Assembly: GCF_029846175.1 (NCBI RefSeq) | Contig: NZ_JARWAC010000019.1 | Coordinates: 1 to 64,000, forward strand | Reading direction: 5' to 3' | Length of the DNA: 64,000 nt | Origin: Sphaerisporangium sp. TRM90804 | GTDB taxonomy: Bacteria > Actinomycetota > Actinomycetes > Streptosporangiales > Streptosporangiaceae | Shown here: positions 9,586 to 47,218 of the stretch, one piece after another | Position numbering within the stretch: the first letter of the stretch is position 1 | Layout: the number at the start of each line of letters is the position of its first letter | Made by a program: the position numbers and the translations under genes | Notes under the pieces: model-generated | The model's input: the letters and a program-made list of their open reading frames with translations, nothing else | What the model was told of the DNA's origin: nothing | Databases searched by the model: none

Positions 9586-11353
9586 ACGTGTGGGCGGCCG
9601 AGGTCCAGGAGGCGTACAGGTCGGCGTAGACGCCCTCCTGGCGGACGAGGCGGTCGTGCGGGCCGCGCTGCACGACGCGGCCGTGCTCGAACACCAGCAC
9701 CTCGTCGGCGGCCTCGGCGGTGGACAGGCGGTGCGCGATCGTCACCGACGTGCGCCCCCGGGTGACGCTCTCCAGCGCCCGCGCCAGCCGCACCTCGGTG
9801 GCGGGGTCGACGGCGGAGGTCGCCTCGTCCAGCAGCAGCAGGTCGGGGTCGGCCAGGTAGGCGCGGGCCAGGGCGACGAGCTGCCGCTCCCCCGCCGACA
9901 GCGACTCGCCGCGCTGCCCGACCGGGGTGGCCAGGCCCGCGGGCAGCCCCTGCAGCCAGTCGGCCAGGCCGAGCTCGGTCATGGCCAGGGTGATGTCGTC
10001 GTCGGTGGCCGTGGGACGGCCGAACCTGATGTTCTCCGCGAGCGTGGCGTCGAACAGGAAGCCGTCCTGCGGCACCATGACGATGCGCGAGCGCAGGGAG
10101 GAGAACCGCAGGCGGCGCAGGTCGGCGCCGTCGACCAGGACCCGCCCGGACGTGGGGTCCATCAGGCGGGTGAGCAGCTTGGCGAAGGTCGTCTTGCCCG
10201 AGCCGGTCTCGCCGACGACCGCGACCCGGGTGCGGGGCGCGATCTCCAGGGAGACGTCGTGCAGCACGGGCGGCCCGCCGGGGTAGGAGAAGCCGACCCG
10301 GTCGAAGGCGACCGTGATCGGGCCGCGCGGCAGGGTGACGCCGGACTCGCCCGGGTCGGCCACGTCGGTCGGGGTGTCCAGCACGCCGAGCACGCGGCGC
10401 CACCCGGCGACGGCGTTCTGGGCGTCGTTGAGCACCTCGGTGGCGAGCTGCAGCGGGCTGATGAACAGCGTGATCAGGAACAGGAACGCGACCAGGCGCC
10501 CGGGGGTGAGCTGGCCGTCCACGCCGAGCCACACCCCGACCAGGACGACGCCGGCGATGGCCACCGCGCCCACCAGCTCGGTGATCGGGAAGGTGAACGC
10601 GATGATCTTCTGCGCGCGGGTCTGCGCCGAGCGGTGCGCGTCGACGGCCTCGTCGACCCGCCGCGCCGTGCGCTCCTCCGAGCCGTAGGCGCGGATCACC
10701 GTGCTGCCGACCACCGACTCGCTGACGGCGGCCAGCATGTCGCCGGTGCGCTCGCGCACGATGGTGTAGGCCTTGGCGACCCACCGCTGGAACCTCGGCA
10801 CGGCGAACGCCATCGGCACGAAGCACACCCACACGACCAGGGCGAGCTGCCAGGAGTAGACGGCCATCAGCACGCTGGCGATGAGCAGCTGGCCGACCGA
10901 GATGATGATCATCAGCCCGCCCCACTGCATGAACGTGCTGATCTGGTCGACGTCGCCGGTGATGCGGGAGACCAGCGCGCCGCGCCGCTCGGTGTTCTGC
11001 GTCAGCACCGACAGGTCGTGCACGTGCCGGAAGCCCTTGCCGCGCAGCGTGGCCAGCCCAGACTCGGTCGAGCGGTAGAGGCGGACGTTCATCAGGTAAC
11101 CGCACACCGCCGACAGCACCACCGCGACCGCGCACAGCAGGACGGCGTTCCTGATGAAAGGCAGGTCGGGTGCCGCGCCGCGCAGTCCGCGGTCGATGAC
11201 CTGCTGGATCGCGATGGGCACGATCAATCGGCCGAGCGTTGCCAGGACGGCGAGCGTCAGCGTGACCGGCAGGCCGACCACGAACTCCGGCGACAGGGCG
11301 AGGCCGCGCCGCAACGTCGCGACGGCCGAGCGTTCTTCCGCCTGCATGGTCAT
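9581..11353 (-). CDS. ABC exporter half-transporter, catalytic-site subunit
   Basis: A 590-residue half-transporter with a six-helix membrane domain (about 25-310) and a C-terminal nucleotide-binding domain. The nucleotide-binding domain shows Walker A GETGSGKTT (near 383), signature LSAGERQL (near 483, deviating from LSGGQ), Walker B LLLLDEATS with the catalytic Glu (near 503) and an H-loop IAHRLS (near 536). Its ATG at 11353 overlaps the upstream subunit stop as ATGA. With that subunit, which lacks the Glu and His, it should form an asymmetric heterodimer with one active and one degenerate ATP site. The substrate cannot be inferred. Confidence 0.92.
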   Translation of the reverse strand: MTMQAEERSAVATLRRGLALSPEFVVGLPVTLTLAVLATLGRLIVPIAIQQVIDRGLRGAAPDLPFIRNAVLLCAVAVVLSAVCGYLMNVRLYRSTESGLATLRGKGFRHVHDLSVLTQNTERRGALVSRITGDVDQISTFMQWGGLMIIISVGQLLIASVLMAVYSWQLALVVWVCFVPMAFAVPRFQRWVAKAYTIVRERTGDMLAAVSESVVGSTVIRAYGSEERTARRVDEAVDAHRSAQTRAQKIIAFTFPITELVGAVAIAGVVLVGVWLGVDGQLTPGRLVAFLFLITLFISPLQLATEVLNDAQNAVAGWRRVLGVLDTPTDVADPGESGVTLPRGPITVAFDRVGFSYPGGPPVLHDVSLEIAPRTRVAVVGETGSGKTTFAKLLTRLMDPTSGRVLVDGADLRRLRFSSLRSRIVMVPQDGFLFDATLAENIRFGRPTATDDDITLAMTELGLADWLQGLPAGLATPVGQRGESLSAGERQLVALARAYLADPDLLLLDEATSAVDPATEVRLARALESVTRGRTSVTIAHRLSTAEAADEVLVFEHGRVVQRGPHDRLVRQEGVYADLYASWTSAAHTS

Positions 11354-13170
11354 GCCGAGATCTCCTCGTCGGCGAGCGCCGCGCGCCCGGCCTCTTCGCG
11401 CTCGTAGGCGGTGACCAGGTCGCGGTACCCCTGGCAGCGGTCCAGCAGCAGCTCGTGGGGGCCGTGGTCGACCACCCTGCCGTGTTCGAGGTAGACGACG
11501 TCGTCGGCCAGCGCGATCGTGGCCATGCGGTAGGCGACGACGATGACGGTGGAGTCGGACGAGCCGTCACGCAGGCCGCGCAGGATCCTGCCCTCCACCT
11601 GGGCGTCCACGCTGGAGGTGGCGTCGTCCAGGATGAGCAGCCGCGGCCGGCCGACCAGCGCCCTGGCCAGGGCCAGCCGCTGGCGCTGGCCGCCCGACAG
11701 GGTGGCGCCGCGCTCGCCGATGCGGGTGTCCAGGCCGTCGGGCAGCGCGCTGACGAACCCGTCGGCCTGGGCCAGGCGCAGGGCCGCCCAGACGCGCTCG
11801 TCGGAGACGGCCTCGTGCCGGTCGTTGCCGACGGTGATGTTGGCCCGCACGGTGTCGTCGAACAGGAAGGTCTGCTGCGGGACCAGGGACGCCGCCGCGC
11901 TGACGCCGCCCTTGGCGACCTCGCGCAGGTCGGTGCCGTCCAGCAGCACCCGGCCGTCGTCGGGGTCGACCAGGCGGACCAGGATCTGGGTGAGCGTCGA
12001 CTTGCCCGAGCCGGTCGGCCCGACGACGGCCACGGTGCGGCCGGGCGGGGCGTCGAAGCTGACGTCCGACAGCACCGGCGCCTCGGGCGTGTACCCGTAG
12101 CGCACGCCGCGCACCTCGACGCCCACGGGGCCGTCGCCGGACAGCCGGGCCTGGCCGAACTCCATCGACCCGGTGGCGTCGAGGATCTCGCGCACCCGGG
12201 TCCAGCCGACGACGCTGCGGGGGAGCTCGGCGAGCACCCAGCCGAGCGCCCGCACGGGGAAGGCGAGCAGCGTGAACAGGTACGCCACCTGGATCAGCGC
12301 GCCGGAGGTGACGTCGCCGCCGGCCAGCCGGAGCGAGCCGACGAGCAGCACGGCGAGCACGCCGATCGTCGGCAACCCCTCCAGCAGCGGGTCGAACAGG
12401 CCTCGGATGCGGCCCACGCCGATGTTGGCGTCGCGGAGCCGCTCGGCCTTGGCCTGGAAGCGGAGCGCCTCGGCGTCCTCGCGGCCCAGGGTCTTGACGA
12501 CGAGCGCGCCGTCGAAGCTCTCGTGGGCGATCTCGCTGACCTCGGCGCGCAGCTGCTGCGCCTTCATGACCAGGGGGGACAGCCGGCGCTGGTAGATCAG
12601 GTTGAGCGCGGCGATGGCCGGGAAGATCAGGAAGCCGACCAGCGCCAGCACCGGGTCGACGAGCAGGATCGCGACGGCCGCGGTGACCAGCATCACGACG
12701 ACGCCGACGGCCATGGGCAGCGGGGCGAGCGGGGCCCAGGCCGCCTCGACGTCGGAGGAGGCGTTGGACAACAGCTGGCCGGTGGGGTGGCGGTGGTGCC
12801 AGGCCAGCGGCAGGCGGAGGTACTGGCGGGTGACGGCGCGGCGGGAGCGCGCCTGCATGCGGTACTGCATGATGCCGGCGAGCGTCCTGCGGGCCATCAC
12901 GCCACCGGCCTTCAGCACCGCGACGCCCACGATGAACAGGGCTGCGGTCAGCAGGGTGGCGGTGGTCGCCCGGCCCTCGCGGAAGGCGGGGAGCACGGCG
13001 TTCTCGGTGGCCCAGCCGAGCGCCCAGGAGGAGGCGACGGTCATGGTGCCGTAGAGGGCGCTGGCCAGCACCGCGCCCGTGAACACGTGTGGCTCGGTCT
13101 TGACCGCGTGGCCGATCACACCGATCCCCTGCAGCATGACGGACGGCTGACGATCACGCTCGCTCGACAC
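11350..13170 (-). CDS. ABC exporter half-transporter, degenerate-site subunit
   Basis: A 606-residue half-transporter of the same architecture. Walker A is GPTGSGKST (near 384) and the signature is a perfect LSGGQRQR (near 489). Walker B reads LLILDDATS (near 510) with Asp in place of the catalytic Glu, and the H-loop is VVAYRMAT with Tyr for His. This is the complement of the partner subunit, so the two composite sites are one canonical and one degenerate. The GTG at 13170 has AAGGA upstream; an ATG at 13137 is an alternative. It is divergent from the TIGR03085 gene. Confidence 0.92.
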   Translation of the reverse strand: MSSERDRQPSVMLQGIGVIGHAVKTEPHVFTGAVLASALYGTMTVASSWALGWATENAVLPAFREGRATTATLLTAALFIVGVAVLKAGGVMARRTLAGIMQYRMQARSRRAVTRQYLRLPLAWHHRHPTGQLLSNASSDVEAAWAPLAPLPMAVGVVVMLVTAAVAILLVDPVLALVGFLIFPAIAALNLIYQRRLSPLVMKAQQLRAEVSEIAHESFDGALVVKTLGREDAEALRFQAKAERLRDANIGVGRIRGLFDPLLEGLPTIGVLAVLLVGSLRLAGGDVTSGALIQVAYLFTLLAFPVRALGWVLAELPRSVVGWTRVREILDATGSMEFGQARLSGDGPVGVEVRGVRYGYTPEAPVLSDVSFDAPPGRTVAVVGPTGSGKSTLTQILVRLVDPDDGRVLLDGTDLREVAKGGVSAAASLVPQQTFLFDDTVRANITVGNDRHEAVSDERVWAALRLAQADGFVSALPDGLDTRIGERGATLSGGQRQRLALARALVGRPRLLILDDATSSVDAQVEGRILRGLRDGSSDSTVIVVAYRMATIALADDVVYLEHGRVVDHGPHELLLDRCQGYRDLVTAYEREEAGRAALADEEISA

Positions 13171-20594: not shown

Positions 20595-20735
20595 CCCATC
20601 TTCTTGGTAGCCGACTAATACCGACATATCTCATTTATCGGTTTTCACCAGATCCTTGCGTGACGGAAGTATCGGGTTCGGGAAACAGATTCCGGATCTC
20701 GGCCATTAACGACGTCGCGATAAGTGCCGCTCAAT

Positions 20736-20741
20736 TAGCAT
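20736..20741 (+). promoter_or_regulatory. Leaderless -10 element of the NACHT-WD40 gene
   Basis: TAGCAT ends 6 bp before the GTG at 20748, with TCCAGG between. The 153-bp region from 20595 is noticeably more AT-rich than its surroundings, which fits a dedicated promoter. Confidence 0.6.
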
Positions 20742-20747
20742 TCCAGG

Positions 20748-23700
20748 GTGTCGCGCCCCTCCCGCCGCGCCCTGCGCCTCGGCGCCGCCCTCGTCCTGGC
20801 GCTCTCCTTCGTGGCGCTGGCGATCTGGATGGCGAGCTCCGACCTCACCGAGAACGACTCCCTGGCCAGCATTCTGAGCCTGTTCGTCGGCCTTATCGCG
20901 CTCGGTTTGACGGCGGCCGACTTCCTGCGCGGCGACGCCGGGCGGCTGGCCCCCGCGGCACTGGCCGACGATCTGGCGAGCACCGTCGAGGGGCAGTGGC
21001 TCGACGAGGCCCGGGCGCGCGGCCTGCGCGACCTCGGGGTGCTGCCGCTGAGCTGGTCGGCCACCGAGCGCGACGTGAGCGACCGCATGGGGGGGCCGGG
21101 CGGCCGGTCCGAGGCCGGGCGGGTCCTGCGCATGCGCCTCGACGGCCGGTTGGAGGGCTCGTTCGAGGAGGCCACGCGGCGGCTCGCCGCGCGGTACCGG
21201 CAGGTGCGCAGCGGGCGGCTGGTGATCCTGGGCGAGCCGGGCTCGGGCAAGTCCGTGCTGGCCGTCCTGCTCACCCTGGGCCTGCTCGACGGCAGGGCCC
21301 GCGAGACGGGCGCGCCGGTGCCGGTGCTGCTGGCGGCCTCGTCCTGGGACCCCCTGGGGGAGTCCATGGACGAATGGGTCGTCCGCACCCTGGCCACCTC
21401 GTACTACAGCGGCCGGACGCAGATCGCCCGGCTGCTGCACGACCGGGGCCTGCTGCTGCCGATCGTCGACGGCCTGGACGAGATCCCCGAGTCGGCGCGC
21501 AGGAGCGCGGTCCGCGCGATCGGCAGGGCCATCGGACGCGACCGCCCCGTCGTGGTGACCTGCCGGTCGGCCGAGTACGAGGACGTGATCGCCGGCGGGG
21601 TCCCGGCGCTGCGCCGCGCCCCCGTGGTCGAGGTGGCCCCCGTGCCGGCGCAGGACGTCATCGGCTACCTCAAGGAGATCGACTGGCCGGACGGCACCGA
21701 CTGGGGCCCCGTCCACCGGCGTCTGCTGACCGACGCGTCCAGCCCGGTCGCCACCGCCCTGTCCACCCCGCTCATGGTGTCCATGGCCCGGCGCGTCTAC
21801 CAGCGGTGCGGCGGCGACCCGGCCGAGCTGCTCGACGAGGCCAGGTTCGACTGCCGCCACGCCGTGGAGGACCACGTCATCGACCGCATGGTCGACGCCG
21901 CCTACACCCCCGAGCCGCCGGCGGGGGCGGCCGGAGTCCCCGGTCCCCCACCCGGCGCGGCGGCGGCGCGCAGGCACCTGATCTTCCTGGCCCGTTACCT
22001 GCATCACCACCGCGAGCGTGATCTGGCCTGGTGGCTGCTCAGCCGGCGCCTGCTGTCCCCCTGGGTGGCCCCCGGCATCGGGCTGCTGGCCGGAGGGCTC
22101 TCCATGGCCCTGCTGATGGTGGTCCTGCGCTGGCAGGTCTCCCAGGCGGTCGAAGGCGCCGATCTGATCGGGATCCTGGGCCTCGGCGCGTGGGTGGGCG
22201 GCGTCTTCTCCGCGCTCGCCATGGTCGCCTGGTACATCGGCGGCGGCGGGACCCCGGGCGGGCTGTCGTTCTCGACGGCGGGCTCGCTCGCCCGACTCCG
22301 GCGGGGATTCGGCACCGGGGTGGCGCTCACCGCCATCCCGGCCATACCGGCGCTGGCCGGCGGCGCGATCGCCGTCTCCATCCAGAGCGGGCCGTGGAGC
22401 GCCGCCGAGACCATGGCCTACTGGGCGTACATGGTGATGACCGCCGGGCTCGCCGTGGTGGTCGGCCTGGCGCTGGCCGTCCACAACTGGCTGCACGGGC
22501 CGCCGTCGCGCTCGACGCGGGCGAGCCCGCTCGGCTTCCTCCGGCAGGACCGCAGATCGTCCCTGGTCGGCGCGGTCGCCGCGGGCGCGGTGCTGGCGGT
22601 GGCCCTGGGCCCCGGCCTGGTCATCAGCCGCGTGATCGCGCGGATCGCCGTGACGGCACGAGCGGGGTGGTCGGCGGAACCCTCCCTGGGCGAGTTCCTG
22701 TTCCTCGCCGACCGGGAGGTCGCCGAGACGCTCGGCATCCTCCAGCAGCTCGAGATCTCGGCCCTGCTCGGCGTCGGCCTGGCCCTGCTGATCCTGCTGA
22801 CGAGGGCGTGGCCGCGGTTCGCGCTGGCCCGGCTGCTTCTCGCGGCCCAGGGGCGCCTGCCCTGGCGGCTGCTGGGCTTCCTCGCCCACGCGCGGGAGCA
22901 GGAGCTGCTGCGCCAGTCAGGCGGGGTGTACCAGTTCCGGCACATCCGCGTGCAGGAATGGCTCGCCACGCAACCGCTCACCAGCCCCGGCGCGCCGGAG
23001 AGGACCAGGCGAAGGCGCCGCGTCCTGTGGACGACGGCCGCCGCCGGGGTCGCGGCGCTGATCTCCGTGTCCGTGGTGGGGAACCTGCCCCGCGACGACT
23101 CGCGAAGCACCGTCTTCGCCGTCGACTGGGGGTCCTTCGTCCTCAGCGAGGACGGGTCGACCATCGTCCGCGCCGTACGAAGCGGCGGGAGAGGCGAATC
23201 CGTCCACGTCCACTCGATCGACACCCGCACCGGCGGGCAGCGCCTCAGGCTCACCACGACCGGCTCGTCCGACTGGATGGTTCTCAGCGCGGACGGGGCG
23301 TTCCTGGCCGTGGGCACCACCTCGACCACGGAGCACGGGGTGAGCGTCATGAGCCTCTGGGAGGTCGCCTCCGGCCGTCTTCGTCATCGTCTCGCGGAAA
23401 GGGGCTCATCCATCGACGCGGTGCTGTTCAGCCCGCGACGGTCCACCGTGGCCGTCGCCAGCAGCACCAACGGGGACGAGATCGTCGGCACGGTGCGCCT
23501 CGTGGACCTCACCACGGGCCAGACCCGCACCGAGGTGAAGGTCCCCGGCGGAGGCGTCGGCCACCTGGAGTTCAGCCCGGACGGCGGGCGCCTCGCCATC
23601 CGCGGTTTCGGCGGCCCCGCCCTGCTGTGGGACACGGCCGGCGGCCGAGAGAGCCACAGGCTCACCGGGCCCACCGGAACGGTCGACGCGGTGGTGTTCA

Positions 23701-24191
23701 GCCCTGATGGCGCGCAAGCCGCCACCACCAGCCAGGACGCGGACGAGAACGGCTCCAGCAGCGTCATCCTGTGGGACACCGCCTCCGGCCGCGAACTCCA
23801 CCGCGTCACCCGTCACGGCGCCATCGTCCACATGGCCGCCTACAGCCCCGACGGCACCCGCATCGCGATCGCCGCGACCGGTAACGCCGACGACGGGCGC
23901 ACCGACGTCGACCTCTGTGACGCCGCGACCGGCCGGCGGTGCCGGCGGCTCACCGGTCATCCCAGCCCGGTGCACGCGCTGGCCTTCAACCCCGACGGCT
24001 CCACCCTGGCGACCGGCGACTTGGAAGGCGTCATCCGGCTGTGGGACACCGCGACCGGCCGGCAGCTCCACCGGCTCACCGGTCACACCGACCAGGTGTC
24101 CATGATCAGGTTTCACCCCGGCGGCTCCGCCCTGATCAGCCAGGGCGAGGACCGGACCGTACGCCTATGGGACCTCGACCGGCTGGGCTGA
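20748..24191 (+). CDS. Transmembrane NACHT NTPase with C-terminal WD40 propeller
   Basis: A 1147-residue STAND-type protein. Two N-terminal hydrophobic segments lie at about 7-28 and 40-58. The NACHT domain has Walker A GEPGSGKS near 162 and Walker B LLPIVDGLDEIPE near 236-248. Six hydrophobic segments lie between about 437 and 690, followed by a soluble segment (RLPWRLLGFLAHAREQELLRQ... with GVYQFRHIRVQEWLA) typical of actinobacterial NACHT proteins. Another hydrophobic segment near 760 precedes about seven WD-like units ending LWDTATGR or similar (780-1147). STAND NTPases are signalling or immune switches. If the NACHT is cytoplasmic, counting helices puts the propeller outside (inference). 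The gene is monocistronic between ybaK and an amidase. Its partner or trigger is unknown. Confidence 0.88.
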   Translation: MSRPSRRALRLGAALVLALSFVALAIWMASSDLTENDSLASILSLFVGLIALGLTAADFLRGDAGRLAPAALADDLASTVEGQWLDEARARGLRDLGVLPLSWSATERDVSDRMGGPGGRSEAGRVLRMRLDGRLEGSFEEATRRLAARYRQVRSGRLVILGEPGSGKSVLAVLLTLGLLDGRARETGAPVPVLLAASSWDPLGESMDEWVVRTLATSYYSGRTQIARLLHDRGLLLPIVDGLDEIPESARRSAVRAIGRAIGRDRPVVVTCRSAEYEDVIAGGVPALRRAPVVEVAPVPAQDVIGYLKEIDWPDGTDWGPVHRRLLTDASSPVATALSTPLMVSMARRVYQRCGGDPAELLDEARFDCRHAVEDHVIDRMVDAAYTPEPPAGAAGVPGPPPGAAAARRHLIFLARYLHHHRERDLAWWLLSRRLLSPWVAPGIGLLAGGLSMALLMVVLRWQVSQAVEGADLIGILGLGAWVGGVFSALAMVAWYIGGGGTPGGLSFSTAGSLARLRRGFGTGVALTAIPAIPALAGGAIAVSIQSGPWSAAETMAYWAYMVMTAGLAVVVGLALAVHNWLHGPPSRSTRASPLGFLRQDRRSSLVGAVAAGAVLAVALGPGLVISRVIARIAVTARAGWSAEPSLGEFLFLADREVAETLGILQQLEISALLGVGLALLILLTRAWPRFALARLLLAAQGRLPWRLLGFLAHAREQELLRQSGGVYQFRHIRVQEWLATQPLTSPGAPERTRRRRRVLWTTAAAGVAALISVSVVGNLPRDDSRSTVFAVDWGSFVLSEDGSTIVRAVRSGGRGESVHVHSIDTRTGGQRLRLTTTGSSDWMVLSADGAFLAVGTTSTTEHGVSVMSLWEVASGRLRHRLAERGSSIDAVLFSPRRSTVAVASSTNGDEIVGTVRLVDLTTGQTRTEVKVPGGGVGHLEFSPDGGRLAIRGFGGPALLWDTAGGRESHRLTGPTGTVDAVVFSPDGAQAATTSQDADENGSSSVILWDTASGRELHRVTRHGAIVHMAAYSPDGTRIAIAATGNADDGRTDVDLCDAATGRRCRRLTGHPSPVHALAFNPDGSTLATGDLEGVIRLWDTATGRQLHRLTGHTDQVSMIRFHPGGSALISQGEDRTVRLWDLDRLG

Positions 24192-24270
24192 CGGCATCAC
24201 GCGGCTCCCGGAGAAGATCGCCGGGCGGCTTGGCAGGCCTTGCCGTCGTGTCGCGGCGATCGGGCGAGCA

Positions 24271-40644: not shown

Positions 40645-43600
40645 GTGATGTCGGATGCACGGCCGGGCGGACGGCAACAGGGACGGCGCGTCGCCGGCCG
40701 CTACCAGCTACTGGAGTCCATCGGCCGTGGCGGCATGGGCATCGTCTGGCGCGCCCATGACGAGCTGCTCGACCGCGTCGTCGCGGTCAAGGAGGTGCGG
40801 TACCCCGGCGACCCCCAGGACGACGAGATCGCCGAGCTCAACCGCCGCACGCTGCGCGAGGCGCGCGCGGCCGGCAGGCTGAACCACCCGAACGTCGTGG
40901 TCGTGCACGACGTCATCGAGGAGAACGGCCGCCCCTGGATCGTCATGCAGCTCGTCGACGCCCGCTCGCTCGGCCAGGTGCTGCGCGACGACGGCCCGAT
41001 GCCGGTGCGCATGGTGGCCGACATCGGCCTGCAGGTGCTGGAGGCCCTGCGGTCGGCGCACGCCGCGGGCGTGCTGCACCGCGACGTCAAGCCCGAGAAC
41101 GTGCTGCTCACCCAGGACGGCCGCGTGGTGCTGACCGACTTCGGCATCGCCCGCATGGAGACCGACACCACGATGACGCGCACCGGCCTGGTGGGCACGC
41201 CCGCGTTCATCGCCCCTGAACGGCTGAGGGGTTACCCCGCCCAGCGCGAGTCCGACCTGTGGTCGCTCGGCGCCACGCTCTACGCCGCCGTCGAGGGACG
41301 GCCGCCGCACGACAAGGGCATGGCGATGGCGACCATGCACGCCGTGCTCAACGACGAGCCCGAGCCCGCGCTGCGCGCCGGGCGCCTCGCCGCGGTGCTG
41401 AGCGGCCTGCTGGAGAAGGATCCGTCCAGGCGGCTGACGTTCGACCAGGCGTCGCGCATGATGCGCGCCATCGCGGAGGACCGCTCCTCCGCCCCCGCCT
41501 CCAGCCAGCGGACGATGCCGCCCACGCCCCTGCCCGAGCCCCCGCCCGTCACCGGCCCGGCGCGGCCCGCGGCGGCCGTGCCCCCGGCCGCCGCGCCCCC
41601 GGCGCGCGAGGGCATGCGCGACCGCGCCGAGCACGCGCTCCAGCGCATGCGCTCGTTCCGGCAGGCCCCGCCCCGGCGCCCGGCCGACCCCGCCCCCGCG
41701 GGCGGGCGGCCGTCCCCCGCCGTACCGCCCCCGAGCGTGCCGTCCACCGGGGTGTCCGCCCCCGGCATGCCCTCCACCGGGGTGTCGCGGCCGGGCGTGC
41801 CCGCCACCCCCGCGCCGCGCGACGGCCGCGATCCCGGCAAACCCGGCACACCCGGCACGCACGACGACGGCCATGGCCCCGGCGGCGCTCAGGCATTGAA
41901 CGCCCCTGCGCCGGCCATGCCGGCCACGCCGCCCGAGACGCCCGCTCAGGAGGAGTCCCGTCCGCCCGCGCGGGCGGACGAGCCCGCCGAGGCCCTCGTC
42001 CCCGAGCAGGCCCCTCCCGCGCGGGCGCAAGAGGGCGACGCCCGATCGGCGCCCGAGGACGCGCCCGCCGCCGAGTCCGGCGACTCCGGCCCCGCCGGGG
42101 CCGCGCCGGCCGCCGAGGCCCCCTCCCGGGACTCCGATGCGCCGTCGCCCGACGCCGAGGAAGCGGTCGCGCAGGGCTCGCCCGCCGAGGCCCCCTCCGA
42201 CGCCTCCCCCGCCGCGGACGCCCCCGCCGACCCGGCACCGCCCGTCGCCGACGCGCCGAACGCCGGCTCCTCCGGCCCGGTCGAGCCGGACGCCGTCTCC
42301 GCCGACGCGGCACCGTCCGGCACGGCCGCGTCCAGCGCGGGCACGTCCAGCGCGGGCACGTCCAGCGCGGGCACGTCCAGCGCGGGCACGTCCGGAAAGC
42401 GGGCACCCACCGACGACACGCCGTCCGACGCCCTTCCCGAGCACGACGCGGTTCCGCGCAGAGCGGCCGCATCCGGTGCGGCGGCGGCCTCCGGCGCGGC
42501 CGCGCCGGGCGCGGTCCCCTTCAGCAACGTGGTGTCGGCCGGCACGGAACCGGGCGAAGGCTCGCCCGAAGAGGCGGACGCCGCCGAACCGGACGTCCCC
42601 GCCCCGGACGCCGACGCCGCGACGCCGGGGGCCGGGCAGCGGCCCGGCGCCGCCGAGGAGGCGGGGGACGCGCGGGTCGCGTCGGCCCTGCGCGCCGAGC
42701 CGGTGGAGACCGGGCGCCCGACCCAGGTCCCGAGGCAGGGCAGGTTCCCCGCGGCCGACACCCGTCCCGAGACGCGCAGGCGTCCCTACGGCGCCGGCCC
42801 CGACAGGCAGGCGGCGGCCCGCCCGGCCGCCGGAGCCTTCGCCGCGACGGCCCGCGGGACGGCCGCGCTCTCCGGCGACCCCGGCGCGACGTCGGTCGAG
42901 CCCGCGCCGGTCTCCCCGGCCGACGGGCACACCATGCGTCCCGCCGGCGGCCACCCCGCCGATCCCGGCGGTTTCGGCGGGCGGCCGGAGGACGGCGAGG
43001 ACGGCCGGCGCCCGCCGGTAATGAAGATCCTCGTGGTGGCCCTTCCCGTGCTCCTGGTCGTGGCGGGGGTCGCCATGTGGCTGGGGGCCCAGGACGCCGG
43101 CACCCCCGCCGGGGCCGCCGGCCCCACCGGCGCCACCTCCGCCCCCGCGCCGTCGTCCGGCGGCCCCACCGACCCCTCGACCTCCAACCCCTCGTCGGAG
43201 TCGTCGCCGCCGGTCTCCCCCAGCGCGTCGGCGAGCCCCTCGCCCAGCGCGTCTCCCAAGCCCGAGTCCTCCAGCCCCGCGGCCGCGCCCGACGGGTGGC
43301 GCGTCCACAAGGACAGCACCGGTTTCTCCCTGGCCCTGCCCAAGGGCTGGAAGCGCGCCGAGCAGAACGGGACGCAGATCTACTTCCGCGGCCCCGACCG
43401 CAACAGCTTCCTGCTGATCGACCACACGAGCAGCCCCAAGTCCAACGCCAAGAAGGACTGGGAGGACCAGGAGCCCTCCGCACGGGGGCGCTTCCCGGGC
43501 TACAAGCTGATCCGCATCAAGTCGGTGGACTACTGGAAGACCGCCGCCGACTGGGAGTTCACCTACAGCGCCGGGGGCGGCCGCGCGCACGTGATCAACC

Positions 43601-43722
43601 GCGGGTTCGTCACCAGCAAGAAGCACGGGTACGCGATCTACTGGAAGACCCTGGACAAGGACTGGAAGAAGAACCTCGACCTGTTCGAGGGGTTCACCTC
43701 CACCTTCAAGCCCGCCAAGTAG
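40645..43722 (+). CDS. Membrane Ser/Thr protein kinase with long linker and extracytoplasmic domain (kinase 1)
   Basis: A 1025-residue PknB-type kinase. The kinase domain (about 18-280) has GRGGMGIVW, VAVKEV, HRDVKPENVLL, TDFGIAR and FIAPERL. Residues 290-790 are a disordered Pro/Ala/Glu/Asp-rich linker, including four exact copies of a 15-bp repeat. A membrane helix lies at about 792-815 (ILVVALPVLLVVAGVAMWL). A Ser/Pro stretch and a globular domain from about 882 to the end (GWRVHKDSTGFSLALPKGW...) follow outside. There are no PASTA repeats. The start may be GTG 40645 or the adjacent ATG. Kinases 1 and 2 share the ectodomain. Confidence 0.92.
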   Translation: MMSDARPGGRQQGRRVAGRYQLLESIGRGGMGIVWRAHDELLDRVVAVKEVRYPGDPQDDEIAELNRRTLREARAAGRLNHPNVVVVHDVIEENGRPWIVMQLVDARSLGQVLRDDGPMPVRMVADIGLQVLEALRSAHAAGVLHRDVKPENVLLTQDGRVVLTDFGIARMETDTTMTRTGLVGTPAFIAPERLRGYPAQRESDLWSLGATLYAAVEGRPPHDKGMAMATMHAVLNDEPEPALRAGRLAAVLSGLLEKDPSRRLTFDQASRMMRAIAEDRSSAPASSQRTMPPTPLPEPPPVTGPARPAAAVPPAAAPPAREGMRDRAEHALQRMRSFRQAPPRRPADPAPAGGRPSPAVPPPSVPSTGVSAPGMPSTGVSRPGVPATPAPRDGRDPGKPGTPGTHDDGHGPGGAQALNAPAPAMPATPPETPAQEESRPPARADEPAEALVPEQAPPARAQEGDARSAPEDAPAAESGDSGPAGAAPAAEAPSRDSDAPSPDAEEAVAQGSPAEAPSDASPAADAPADPAPPVADAPNAGSSGPVEPDAVSADAAPSGTAASSAGTSSAGTSSAGTSSAGTSGKRAPTDDTPSDALPEHDAVPRRAAASGAAAASGAAAPGAVPFSNVVSAGTEPGEGSPEEADAAEPDVPAPDADAATPGAGQRPGAAEEAGDARVASALRAEPVETGRPTQVPRQGRFPAADTRPETRRRPYGAGPDRQAAARPAAGAFAATARGTAALSGDPGATSVEPAPVSPADGHTMRPAGGHPADPGGFGGRPEDGEDGRRPPVMKILVVALPVLLVVAGVAMWLGAQDAGTPAGAAGPTGATSAPAPSSGGPTDPSTSNPSSESSPPVSPSASASPSPSASPKPESSSPAAAPDGWRVHKDSTGFSLALPKGWKRAEQNGTQIYFRGPDRNSFLLIDHTSSPKSNAKKDWEDQEPSARGRFPGYKLIRIKSVDYWKTAADWEFTYSAGGGRAHVINRGFVTSKKHGYAIYWKTLDKDWKKNLDLFEGFTSTFKPAK
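42331..42390 (+). repeat. Four perfect 15-bp tandem repeats within kinase 1
   Basis: TCCAGCGCGGGCACG is repeated four times without a mismatch (42331-42390), encoding SSAGT units in the disordered linker. Perfect identity in otherwise diverged low-complexity sequence suggests recent slippage and probable copy-number variation between strains. Confidence 0.9.
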
Positions 43723-45745: not shown

Positions 45746-47218
45746 ATGCCGGAATCGTCCCAGGTCACAGACCACGTCGTGGCAGGCAGGTACCACCTGC
45801 ACGAACCGATCGGCCGAGGTGGCATGGGCACCGTCTGGCGGGCGTCCGACAAGATCCTGGGCCGCGAGGTCGCGGTCAAGGAGCTGATCGCGCCCCCGGA
45901 GCTGACGGGGCCCGAGCGAGAGATCTTCGCGTTACGGACGTTCCGGGAGGCCCGCGCCGCGGGGCGCGTGTGCCACGCCGGCGTCGCCACCGTCTACGAC
46001 GTGTTCGAGGAGAACGGCCACCCCTGGATCGTGATGCAGCTGGTCGACTCCGACACCCTGGGTGCCGTGGTCCGCGACCAGGGCGCGCTGCCGCCGGCGC
46101 GCGTCGCCGAGATCGGGCTGCAGGTGCTGGCCGCGCTGAGGGCCGCCCACCAGGCGGGGGTCCTGCACCGGGACGTCAAGCCCGACAACGTGCTGCTCGC
46201 CAAGGACGGCGGGCGCGCCGTGCTCACCGACTTCGGCATCGCGATGCTGGACGACGACTCCCCCGTGACCCGCACGGGCATGCTGATCGGCACCCCGGCC
46301 TTCATCGCGCCCGAGCGCGCCGCCGGCGGCCAGGCGACGCGGGCGTCCGACCTGTGGTCGCTCGGGGTGACCCTGTACGTCGCGGTCGAGGGCCGCTCGC
46401 CGTTCCAGCGCGGTAACCCGCTGGCGACGCTCGGCGCCGTCATGCACGACCCGCCCGCGCCGCTGCGGCTGGCCGGGCCGCTGGCGCCCGTCCTCATGGG
46501 CCTGCTCCACAAGGACCCCGAGCAGCGGCTGACCGCCGCCCAGGCCGAGACATACCTGCGCATGGTGGCGGCGGGCATCCAGCCCGAGCCCACCTCGCCG
46601 TTCGTGCCGCTCCAGGGCACCGCGCCGGCCCCCGCGCCGGCCACGGCCGCCCCTCCGCCGCCGCACTCCCCCGCGTCGCCGCGCTCCGCCGGCGGCTCGG
46701 GAGGGCGCGCGATGGCGCTGGCGGGGCTGACCGCCCTGGTGCTGTCGGTGGGCCTGGTGGCCGGCGGCATGGCGTGGGTGACCGCCCGCTCCGACGGGGC
46801 GCGCGTGACGCCGGCGACGTCCCCGACCGTGCGGGTGACGGTCTCGGTGACGCCGACCGCGGAGTCGTCCGCCCAGGTCGTGACGCGCAACACCCCGCAG
46901 GGCGGCTACGCGCCGGACCCGTCGTCGCCCCTGCAGCGGTCCGAGCGCGCCAAGCCCACCGCCGGCGAGAAGGACCGCGACAAGCCGTCGGGCCCGGCGG
47001 ACAAGCCCACCAAGCCCAAACCAGAGCCCAAGGAGCCGAAGAAGCCCCGGGAGACCGAGGACGGCTCCGGCAACGTGGTGCCCCCCGGACACGCCGGGGA
47101 GGACGCCCCGTCGGGCGACGAGAAGAGCGACGACCAGGGCGGCGGCACCGAGGGGCACGCCGGCCAGGAGGACGGCAAGGCCGTCGTCGAGGAGCGCACC
47201 GTCACCCCCGGCGCCTAG
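45746..47218 (+). CDS. Membrane Ser/Thr protein kinase with charged extracytoplasmic tail (kinase 3)
   Basis: A 490-residue kinase with the same catalytic motifs (GRGGMGTVW, VAVKEL, HRDVKPDNVLL, TDFGIAML, FIAPERA), a short Pro/Ala linker and a membrane helix at about 322-345. About 145 residues of Lys/Pro/Glu/Asp-rich low-complexity sequence (KPTKPKPEPKEPKKP...) follow in place of a sensor domain. The ATG at 45746 has GGGAAG upstream. It lies 43 bp after kinase 2 and may be cotranscribed with it. The missing ectodomain suggests another input or interaction with the neighbouring kinases. Confidence 0.9.
   Translation: MPESSQVTDHVVAGRYHLHEPIGRGGMGTVWRASDKILGREVAVKELIAPPELTGPEREIFALRTFREARAAGRVCHAGVATVYDVFEENGHPWIVMQLVDSDTLGAVVRDQGALPPARVAEIGLQVLAALRAAHQAGVLHRDVKPDNVLLAKDGGRAVLTDFGIAMLDDDSPVTRTGMLIGTPAFIAPERAAGGQATRASDLWSLGVTLYVAVEGRSPFQRGNPLATLGAVMHDPPAPLRLAGPLAPVLMGLLHKDPEQRLTAAQAETYLRMVAAGIQPEPTSPFVPLQGTAPAPAPATAAPPPPHSPASPRSAGGSGGRAMALAGLTALVLSVGLVAGGMAWVTARSDGARVTPATSPTVRVTVSVTPTAESSAQVVTRNTPQGGYAPDPSSPLQRSERAKPTAGEKDRDKPSGPADKPTKPKPEPKEPKKPRETEDGSGNVVPPGHAGEDAPSGDEKSDDQGGGTEGHAGQEDGKAVVEERTVTPGA

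Follow-up and report, generated by a model that had tools for sequence, protein, structure and literature searches.

The NACHT-WD40 gene and the domain order of its product

The window analysed in this work is a stretch of 64,000 nucleotides from Sphaerisporangium sp. TRM90804 (contig NZ_JARWAC010000019.1, positions 1 to 64,000). Its subject is one gene, located at positions 20748 to 24191 of the forward strand, whose product combines a NACHT NTPase domain, a series of hydrophobic helices and a C-terminal WD40 propeller that is predicted to lie on the outer side of the membrane. The features of the gene are listed below (ORF, open reading frame; TM, transmembrane helix).

20748..24191, + strand: gene of the NACHT-6TM-FRH-TM-WD40 protein, 1147 amino acids, GTG start (ORF, coding-frame statistics)
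20778..20918, + strand: hairpin of two helices (residues 11-29, 39-57) at the N-terminus, which is itself predicted to be inside (hydropathy, charge)
21219..21671, + strand: NACHT NTPase domain, residues 158-308, with Walker A GEPGSGKS at 162-169 (Pfam; motif read directly)
22071..22802, + strand: block of six membrane helices, residues 442-685, lying after the NACHT region and before FRH (hydropathy, alignment)
22803..22973, + strand: FRH segment, residues 686-742, YQFRHIRVQEWLA, predicted to be inside and resembling a winged helix in pattern only
23022..23078, + strand: ninth helix, residues 759-777, directly behind TRRRRR and predicted to take the chain outside (hydropathy, charge)
23079..23123, + strand: post-helix linker, residues 778-792, predicted outside, with an LPxDxSxAT-like motif (by eye) in most members
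23133..24188, + strand: WD40 beta-propeller, residues about 796-1147, probably eight blades, predicted outside (Pfam, structure prediction, Foldseek)

The codon-position GC content marks the coding frame of the ORF (GC3 0.95). Upstream of the GTG the open frame runs only about three codons further (1150 amino acids), and a clear Shine-Dalgarno sequence was not seen by eye at this start. Helices were called from Kyte-Doolittle hydropathy in 19-residue windows, which gave nine hydrophobic helices, at residues 11-29, 39-57, 442-460, 473-491, 525-543, 560-578, 608-626, 667-685 and 759-777. The sole additional non-overlapping window above 1.2 was the Walker A segment (158-176); after residue 777 the scan found no window above 1.2, and the maximum from about residue 808 to the C-terminus was 0.87.

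In a Pfam scan of residues 1-781 the NACHT match was weak yet above the cut-off (27.1 versus 26.7 bits, residues 158-308), and in the genome scan the NACHT score of the protein was 31 bits; a Walker B-like motif, LLPIVDGLDEIP, was read directly. The WD40 match reached 91.5 bits against a cut-off of 27. An alignment of eight members was prepared, including the window protein and one member (L039) without its N-terminal part. The WD40 domain was matched in all eight, and NACHT, at an E value of 0.001, in seven, the eighth being the truncated L039. The order of two helices, NACHT, six helices, FRH, one helix and WD40 that an earlier note had read from the sequence was thus borne out by the hydropathy windows and by Pfam.

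The earlier note had also pointed to structure prediction of the C-terminal region, and here the WD40 propeller, modelled alone from one sequence, folded well (mean predicted local distance difference test score, pLDDT, 81.7; predicted template modelling score, pTM, 0.79; 31 strands). Foldseek matched this model to WD40 propellers, the best being that of PkwA (5yzv, E 2.7e-19, 35% identity). Longer templates cover the propeller better: ODA16 reaches a query TM-score of 0.70 and the eight-bladed design Tako8 one of 0.62, whereas 5yzv stays at 0.55. Together with six WD-type motifs that recur at a spacing of 42-48 residues, this suggests that there are probably eight blades, a count to be read with the caution due to a single-sequence model. 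The full-length model was poor beyond the propeller (mean pLDDT 43.5), and owing to this low confidence it was dropped as a guide to topology or domain contacts.

Predicted membrane topology of the protein

The alternation of charge between inside and outside loops was computed with the N-terminus taken as inside. In the eight aligned members, the short loops predicted inside contain 193 lysines plus arginines and 41 aspartates plus glutamates in 1001 residues (19% and 4%), whereas those predicted outside contain 36 and 100 in 716 residues (5% and 14%). Conservation follows the same division: the 136 inside columns (425-441, 492-524, 579-607 and the FRH segment, 686-742) are gap-free, with a mean pair identity of 0.64, and the 63 outside-loop columns are gapped, with a mean of 0.25 (p 3e-15 in a Mann-Whitney test that takes columns to be independent). 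The linker just upstream of the ninth helix is an exception, being predicted inside yet variable (24%).

Substitution rates were obtained for the closest pair, L062 from Nonomuraea aridisoli and L063 from N. terrae. Nonsynonymous divergence (dN) was 0.013 in NACHT and 0.029 and 0.016 in inside loops; in outside loops it was 0.338, 0.242 and 0.206, and in the available part of the C-terminal domain 0.252. The ratio of dN in the membrane block to that in NACHT was about 11 in this pair, versus about 0.4, 1.1, 1.4 and 1.7 in four control pairs without a WD40 tail, which were not divided into inside and outside loops.

The last helix was found in all 12 WD40-type members examined, 25-42 residues past the FRH segment, and its sequence is barely conserved (22% mean identity over the eight aligned members). 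Lysine plus arginine is greater on its N side in 11 of the 12, and net charge in all 12. Past this helix, no other hydrophobic stretch above 1.3 was found in the available parts of these members, two of which come from plasmids; among them, L062 stops at a contig end, the ORF of L039 is truncated and L179 has a masked stretch.

Several observations weigh against this topology or reduce the evidence for it. The helices rest on hydropathy windows and not on a dedicated topology program, and the number of helices between NACHT and FRH ranges from two to nine in the wider family, being six in 58 of 126 rows. In the L062/L063 pair, synonymous divergence (dS) is also uneven (0.099 in NACHT versus 0.291 in the membrane block), and since dS too differs between regions, recombination may contribute to the contrast in rates. 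The FRH end was fast in two of the four control pairs, and the cysteine domain of the L043/L046 pair was only modestly faster than NACHT (0.036 versus 0.021). Four of the WD40-type members (L179, L199, L203 and L204) are absent from the tree described below; they were grouped with the others on similarity, and their WD40 domain was recognised by BLAST or by eye. Among the family rows with one helix in the tail, lysine plus arginine within 15 residues was higher on the N side in just 10 of 17; the short four-cysteine relatives have no clear charge bias at the helix, and their topology is less sure.

By region, dS between L062 and L063 was 0.10 in NACHT, 0.25-0.37 in most flanking regions and 0.06 in the short linker and last helix, an unevenness which suggests that recombination has made the gene a mosaic.

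Probable exchange of the domain that follows the ninth helix

The family was surveyed in 143 rows with a related NACHT core, collected from the matches listed in 200 genomes of the family at E 1e-30, from genus and own-genome searches, and from two named Nonomuraea loci together with further matching ORFs on those stretches. At this threshold the core is present in 80 of the 200 genomes. The family sampled is probably Streptosporangiaceae, since the N. terrae copy is found in one of its genomes (G196). A regular expression for FRH matched 131 rows, and the 12 that it missed were left out of the tail counts. After FRH, 98 of the 131 proteins end within 60 residues and one within 100, while 32 (30 of them distinct) have longer tails. 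Exactly one helix followed by a soluble domain is the most frequent arrangement of the distinct long tails (17 of 30; eight WD40, nine other); seven are helix-free (four TPR-like, two WD40, one unknown), three have two helices and a small domain, and three have many helices. All nine non-WD40 one-helix tails contain four or eight cysteines, against zero to three in the helix-free tails and zero or two in the WD40 one-helix tails; even numbers of this kind are what disulfide-bonded domains outside the cell would show.

A quick IQ-TREE phylogeny was calculated from 135 rows, leaving out eight (the partial duplicates L003 and L008, the TIR copy L004, and rows shorter than 500 amino acids or with a short core, including L039). 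The seven WD40-with-helix members in the tree form one clade with a support of 99. Its sister is L163 (support 96 for the eight rows), which has the same chassis and helix and a different, eight-cysteine domain. Between the window protein and L159, identity is 73% in NACHT, 86% in FRH and 36% in the propeller; the chassis is conserved, and the propeller diverges far faster. Among relatives the chassis is retained while what follows the last helix differs, and the propeller outpaces the chassis; on these two grounds the comparison gives moderate support to the view that the propeller is an exchangeable recognition module.

The earlier note had predicted that the propeller is outside if NACHT is cytoplasmic, and this topology is well supported by charge, evolutionary rate, the presence of the helix and the exchange of the domain behind it. 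From these sequence features we strongly infer that the N-terminus, the NACHT domain and the FRH segment are cytoplasmic and the propeller extracytoplasmic; that the propeller lies outside is very probable. The alternative, that it lies in the cytoplasm as in soluble NACHT-WD40 proteins, because the helix near residue 760 is a surface or re-entrant one or because one of the six helices does not cross, is improbable. The WD40 domain is usually a cytosolic fold, the ninth helix of the window protein is only moderately hydropathic (1.99 over 19 residues, 1.88 over the 17 chosen), and helix counts vary across the wider family. Against this stand the retention of the helix in every WD40-type member examined despite its low identity, the RRRRR on its N side, the alternation of charge and rate along the whole protein, and the cysteine-rich domain that fills the same slot in the sister branch. 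The earlier note had named homologues without the helix near residue 760 as a ground for refutation, and to a limited extent such homologues exist: two family members, L114 and L158, have WD40 straight after FRH and no helix, which counts for a cytoplasmic propeller, but both lie outside the clade of the window protein. As they sit in other branches of the tree, we regard them as a separate, cytoplasmic use of WD40 that does not overturn the call for the window protein. The NACHT-chassis family therefore seems to use WD40 on both sides of the membrane, with the helix, and not the fold, telling the side.

Other tails were also recorded. That of L163 (L163:11133-12455) is a domain of about 440 amino acids with eight cysteines; by eye it looked like a periplasmic binding protein, a candidate that was rejected because no convincing match came from Pfam, from NCBIfam or from sequence searches of the PDB. 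The C-terminal 150 amino acids of L043, L044, L046, L047, L051 and L052 are a short four-cysteine domain behind one helix, for which no Pfam match was found in the two tested (L043 and L047). TPR-like tails without the last helix follow the membrane chassis in L070 (own genome, C3), L090, L121 and L140, of which only L090 was checked by Pfam; these would be a cytoplasmic-sensor version of the chassis, with one copy in the genome of the window itself. The tails of L042, L061 and L091 have two helices and a small domain, PH-like by eye, and would return to the cytoplasm; L182 has a similar tail with one helix counted, and no Pfam match was found for the tail of L042. In L066, L071 and L096 the chassis is followed by another stretch of 8 to 11 hydrophobic helices. 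The copy of N. aridisoli contains an exact tandem WD40 repeat (L062:8400-8730), and the contig ends inside the repeats, which is likely an assembly break in a repetitive propeller.

The N-terminal slot and the STAND core

A short N-terminus with two helices was found in 102 of 141 rows. Long N-termini occur in 19 rows, ten of which were scanned with Pfam: four reach the cut-off, with BTAD (L006), TIR (L004), Ser/Thr kinase (L077) and ParA-like AAA (L060) domains, two have sub-threshold matches and four have none. The TIR domain of L004, which belongs to the genome of the window, sits exactly at the cut-off. In these four proteins the two-helix hairpin was not seen (zero or one helix counted). 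Given the known layout of STAND proteins, and as the hairpin gives way to a TIR, BTAD, kinase or ParA-like domain in some relatives, the N-terminal slot is likely an output slot, of which the hairpin would be the default occupant. A phmmer search of residues 1-457 of the window protein against the PDB gave only designed armadillo-repeat matches. L006 (L006:541-3456), from a congener, is a BTAD transcriptional-activator domain fused to the NACHT six-helix chassis, which is the architecture of a membrane-bound regulator, and a close relative of it is found in another congener (L041).

Two soluble NACHT proteins of the same genome, in which no membrane helix was found, have a YGFVHRAFLEFF-type motif about 320 residues past Walker A, whereas the YQFRHIRVQEWLA motif of the window protein lies 568 residues past it. 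Since this extra distance is approximately the length of the six-helix block, the comparison suggests an insertion of the membrane domain within the STAND switch itself, ahead of the winged-helix-like segment. The FRH segment resembles the motif of the two soluble proteins by eye, and hhalign gave a weak match (E 0.024, probability 2%). A PDB profile search with the segment gave chance-level matches only, and FRH is here called no more than winged-helix-like.

Distribution and genomic neighbourhood

In the ten other genomes of the genus (10/10) the YbaK-like gene adjoins the amidase gene with no gene between them, and in the window the NACHT gene sits between the two. An amidase leader, known from at least four congeners (L167, L169, L172 and L174), lies just past it. 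The NACHT-WD40 gene is therefore, judged from gene order, an accessory single-gene insertion:

20595..24228, no strand assigned: accessory insertion, from the stop of the YbaK-like gene to the amidase leader, absent in 10/10 congeners; downstream edge approximate

In L165, the amidase beside the YbaK-like gene is inverted.

Orthologues of the WD40 type occur in 7 of 200 sampled genomes of the family, that of the window counted. The 345 genomes of the order add two, both from the same family (G239 and G253), the former with the length and tail of the N. aridisoli copy and the latter frameshifted; 394 genomes of the class add two more (L179 and L199), in two other families. Two linear Streptomyces plasmids also carry orthologues (L203 and L204), annotated merely as 'NACHT domain-containing protein'. 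A phylum-level search at E 1e-50 found none in 395 other genomes.

Neighbouring genes were compared all against all, using ORFs shorter than 1000 amino acids from window positions 10001-35000 and from seven orthologue loci. Leaving aside ORFs that lie within the NACHT genes, the comparison found the gene upstream of the NACHT gene shared by the two Nonomuraea species and one distant pair (L162:84-1994 versus window 11350-13170 and 10001-11353, at 28-32% identity) that lies several kb away, and nothing else. As the neighbours of the orthologues are unshared save for the Nonomuraea pair and this distant one, the protein would appear to act alone, as far as the stretches compared show. A conserved defence operon was rejected on the same comparison, the conserved neighbour being confined to two close species.

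In the window, the neighbours of the NACHT gene look like housekeeping genes. Farther downstream, two ORFs (40645-43722 and 45746-47218) start, by eye, like Ser/Thr protein kinases (GRYQLLESIGRGGMGIVWRA, GRYHLHEPIGRGGMGTVWRA). At L160, one of the orthologue loci, a phage-type integrase lies about 2.2 kb upstream.

Proposed function and alternative explanations

The reading that we prefer, with somewhat better than even confidence, is that the product is a STAND receptor embedded in the membrane, whose external sensor can be exchanged. That the protein is a receptor is likely, and its stimulus would most likely lie at the cell surface or within the wall, for example another strain, an adsorbing phage, an antibiotic or a damaged envelope; a role in defence is possible. 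The propeller may be coupled to the switch as follows. A ligand bound outside would shift the ninth helix and the adjoining FRH segment, the shift of FRH would free the NACHT switch for ATP binding and oligomerisation, and the N-terminal two-helix hairpins would then cluster and disturb the membrane, or signal in some other way. Such coupling could serve either defence or the response to envelope stress.

Several observations weigh against a place of this receptor among known defence systems: no curated defence model fits the protein (NCBIfam EruA, PADLOC), phage records gave no match to it, and the neighbour comparison found a shared context in the two Nonomuraea species alone. The EruA model covers 18 residues around Walker A at 16.8 bits, versus a cut-off of 1000; the best PADLOC match (HEAT-ARM_XIII, E 1e-6) is confined to the WD40 region, and the two matches in the NACHT region have E values of 0.05 and 0.07. 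Membership of a named defence family was rejected on these grounds.

Among narrower roles, a sensor of envelope stress, development or contact in multicellular actinomycetes, including the recognition of kin or strains, whose output would be signalling and not death, is possible, although we hold it with less than even confidence. It is favoured by the relatives in which the hairpin is swapped for a BTAD regulator or a Ser/Thr kinase, that is, for signalling outputs, and by a kinase-helix-WD40 protein in the same genus; in addition, the exactly repeated WD40 stretch of the N. aridisoli protein is reminiscent of the fungal HET-D/HET-E sensors (PMC12222747). A conserved housekeeping role is unlikely, the gene being absent from 10/10 congeners, and at the N-terminus of the window protein there is the hairpin, with neither a BTAD nor a kinase match. 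Slightly less probable, and rather unlikely, is anti-phage abortive infection, in which the propeller or the membrane block would sense the attachment of a phage or the entry of its DNA, after which oligomerised NACHT would kill the cell through the hairpins. A defence function is established for STAND NTPases that carry a sensor at the C-terminus (PMC10907252), the gene is accessory, found on plasmids and diversifying, and the same genome encodes the chassis with a TIR domain that scores exactly the Pfam cut-off; on the other side stand the defence-model scores given above, the housekeeping-like neighbours in the window and the unshared neighbours of the orthologues.

PMC12222747 describes NLR-type switches as intracellular sensors. 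If the sensor of the membrane-embedded receptor preferred here is indeed outside, a single polypeptide would directly connect the cell surface with an NTPase switch of the immune type. The chassis family offers natural exchanges of the sensor (WD40, cysteine-rich, and TPR-like inside) and of the N-terminus (two-helix hairpin, TIR, BTAD, kinase), so that chimeras and Walker mutants could be used to test directly how a STAND switch is coupled across the membrane.

Comparison with known systems

The window protein has the plan of a signalling domain, one helix (759-777) and a C-terminal WD40 domain, and its residues 1-781 gave no kinase and no HET among the seven Pfam families listed. PkwA of Thermomonospora curvata (Ser/Thr kinase and WD40) likewise has an actinobacterial C-terminal WD40 propeller on a signalling protein; its output domain is a kinase and not NACHT, and we take it to have a membrane helix itself and to be without the six-helix block. 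In the same genus as the window, L032, seen in part, has a kinase, a helix and WD40, and L014, L015, L023 and L024, also seen in part, have a STAND NTPase (nSTAND1), a helix and WD40, with an Arg-rich N side of the helix in L014, L015 and L023, as in the window protein. Unlike these, the window protein matches nSTAND1 at just 14 bits versus a cut-off of 27.1, and the six-helix block is absent from the available parts of the nSTAND1 proteins and of L032. The kinase-helix-WD40 and nSTAND1-helix-WD40 proteins are thus, by predicted architecture, close precedents, and the plan of signalling domain, helix and WD40 exists in the genus of the window.

Among defence proteins, Avs, bNACHT and the NACHT sensors diversified by diversity-generating retroelements have, according to PMC10907252, an N-terminal output, a central STAND domain and a variable C-terminal sensor, as the window protein has. 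Their sensors are of another fold, whereas the window protein has a membrane-embedded chassis and fits no defence model. For a Thiohalocapsa NACHT protein (NACHT-CLec), the target or sensor is predicted to be periplasmic in the same source. The conflict systems with variable C-terminal domains past a TM helix (Kaur et al. 2020, 2021; PMC7159879 and PMC8195603) also combine a constant part with exchangeable extracytoplasmic domains, which include PBP and CHASE2; their constant part has a caspase-type component and not NACHT with six helices. Metacaspase-NACHT-WD40 proteins are described in PMC3501461. The word NACHT is absent from PMC5587647 and PMC6805158, and PMC6113231 contains no word beginning with membrane, transmembrane or extracellular. 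A description of a six-helix NACHT chassis with exchangeable external domains was not found in the literature searched, most subscription journals being outside its scope.

The NTPase of the fungal proteins HET-D and HET-E (HNWD) is likewise NACHT; they are not known to have a membrane block, and their effector is a HET domain, where the window protein has a two-helix hairpin. From the HNWD definition the window protein differs by its nine helices and by the lack of HET among the families listed. In PMC12222747, HET-D and HET-E are NLR proteins with a diversifying WD40 sensor whose repeats are alike, combining high internal identity with diversifying sites, and the N. aridisoli member, which repeats one WD40 stretch exactly, recalls them. 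According to the same source the fungal proteins are intracellular, unlike the predicted outward sensor of the window protein. We tentatively propose, as a possibility rather than an expectation, an actinobacterial class of surface NLR-like NACHT receptors, with a membrane domain inside the STAND core, placed between NACHT and the winged-helix-like FRH segment, and interchangeable, diversifying external sensors of non-self (WD40, cysteine-bonded or other), which would be the outward counterparts of fungal HET-E.

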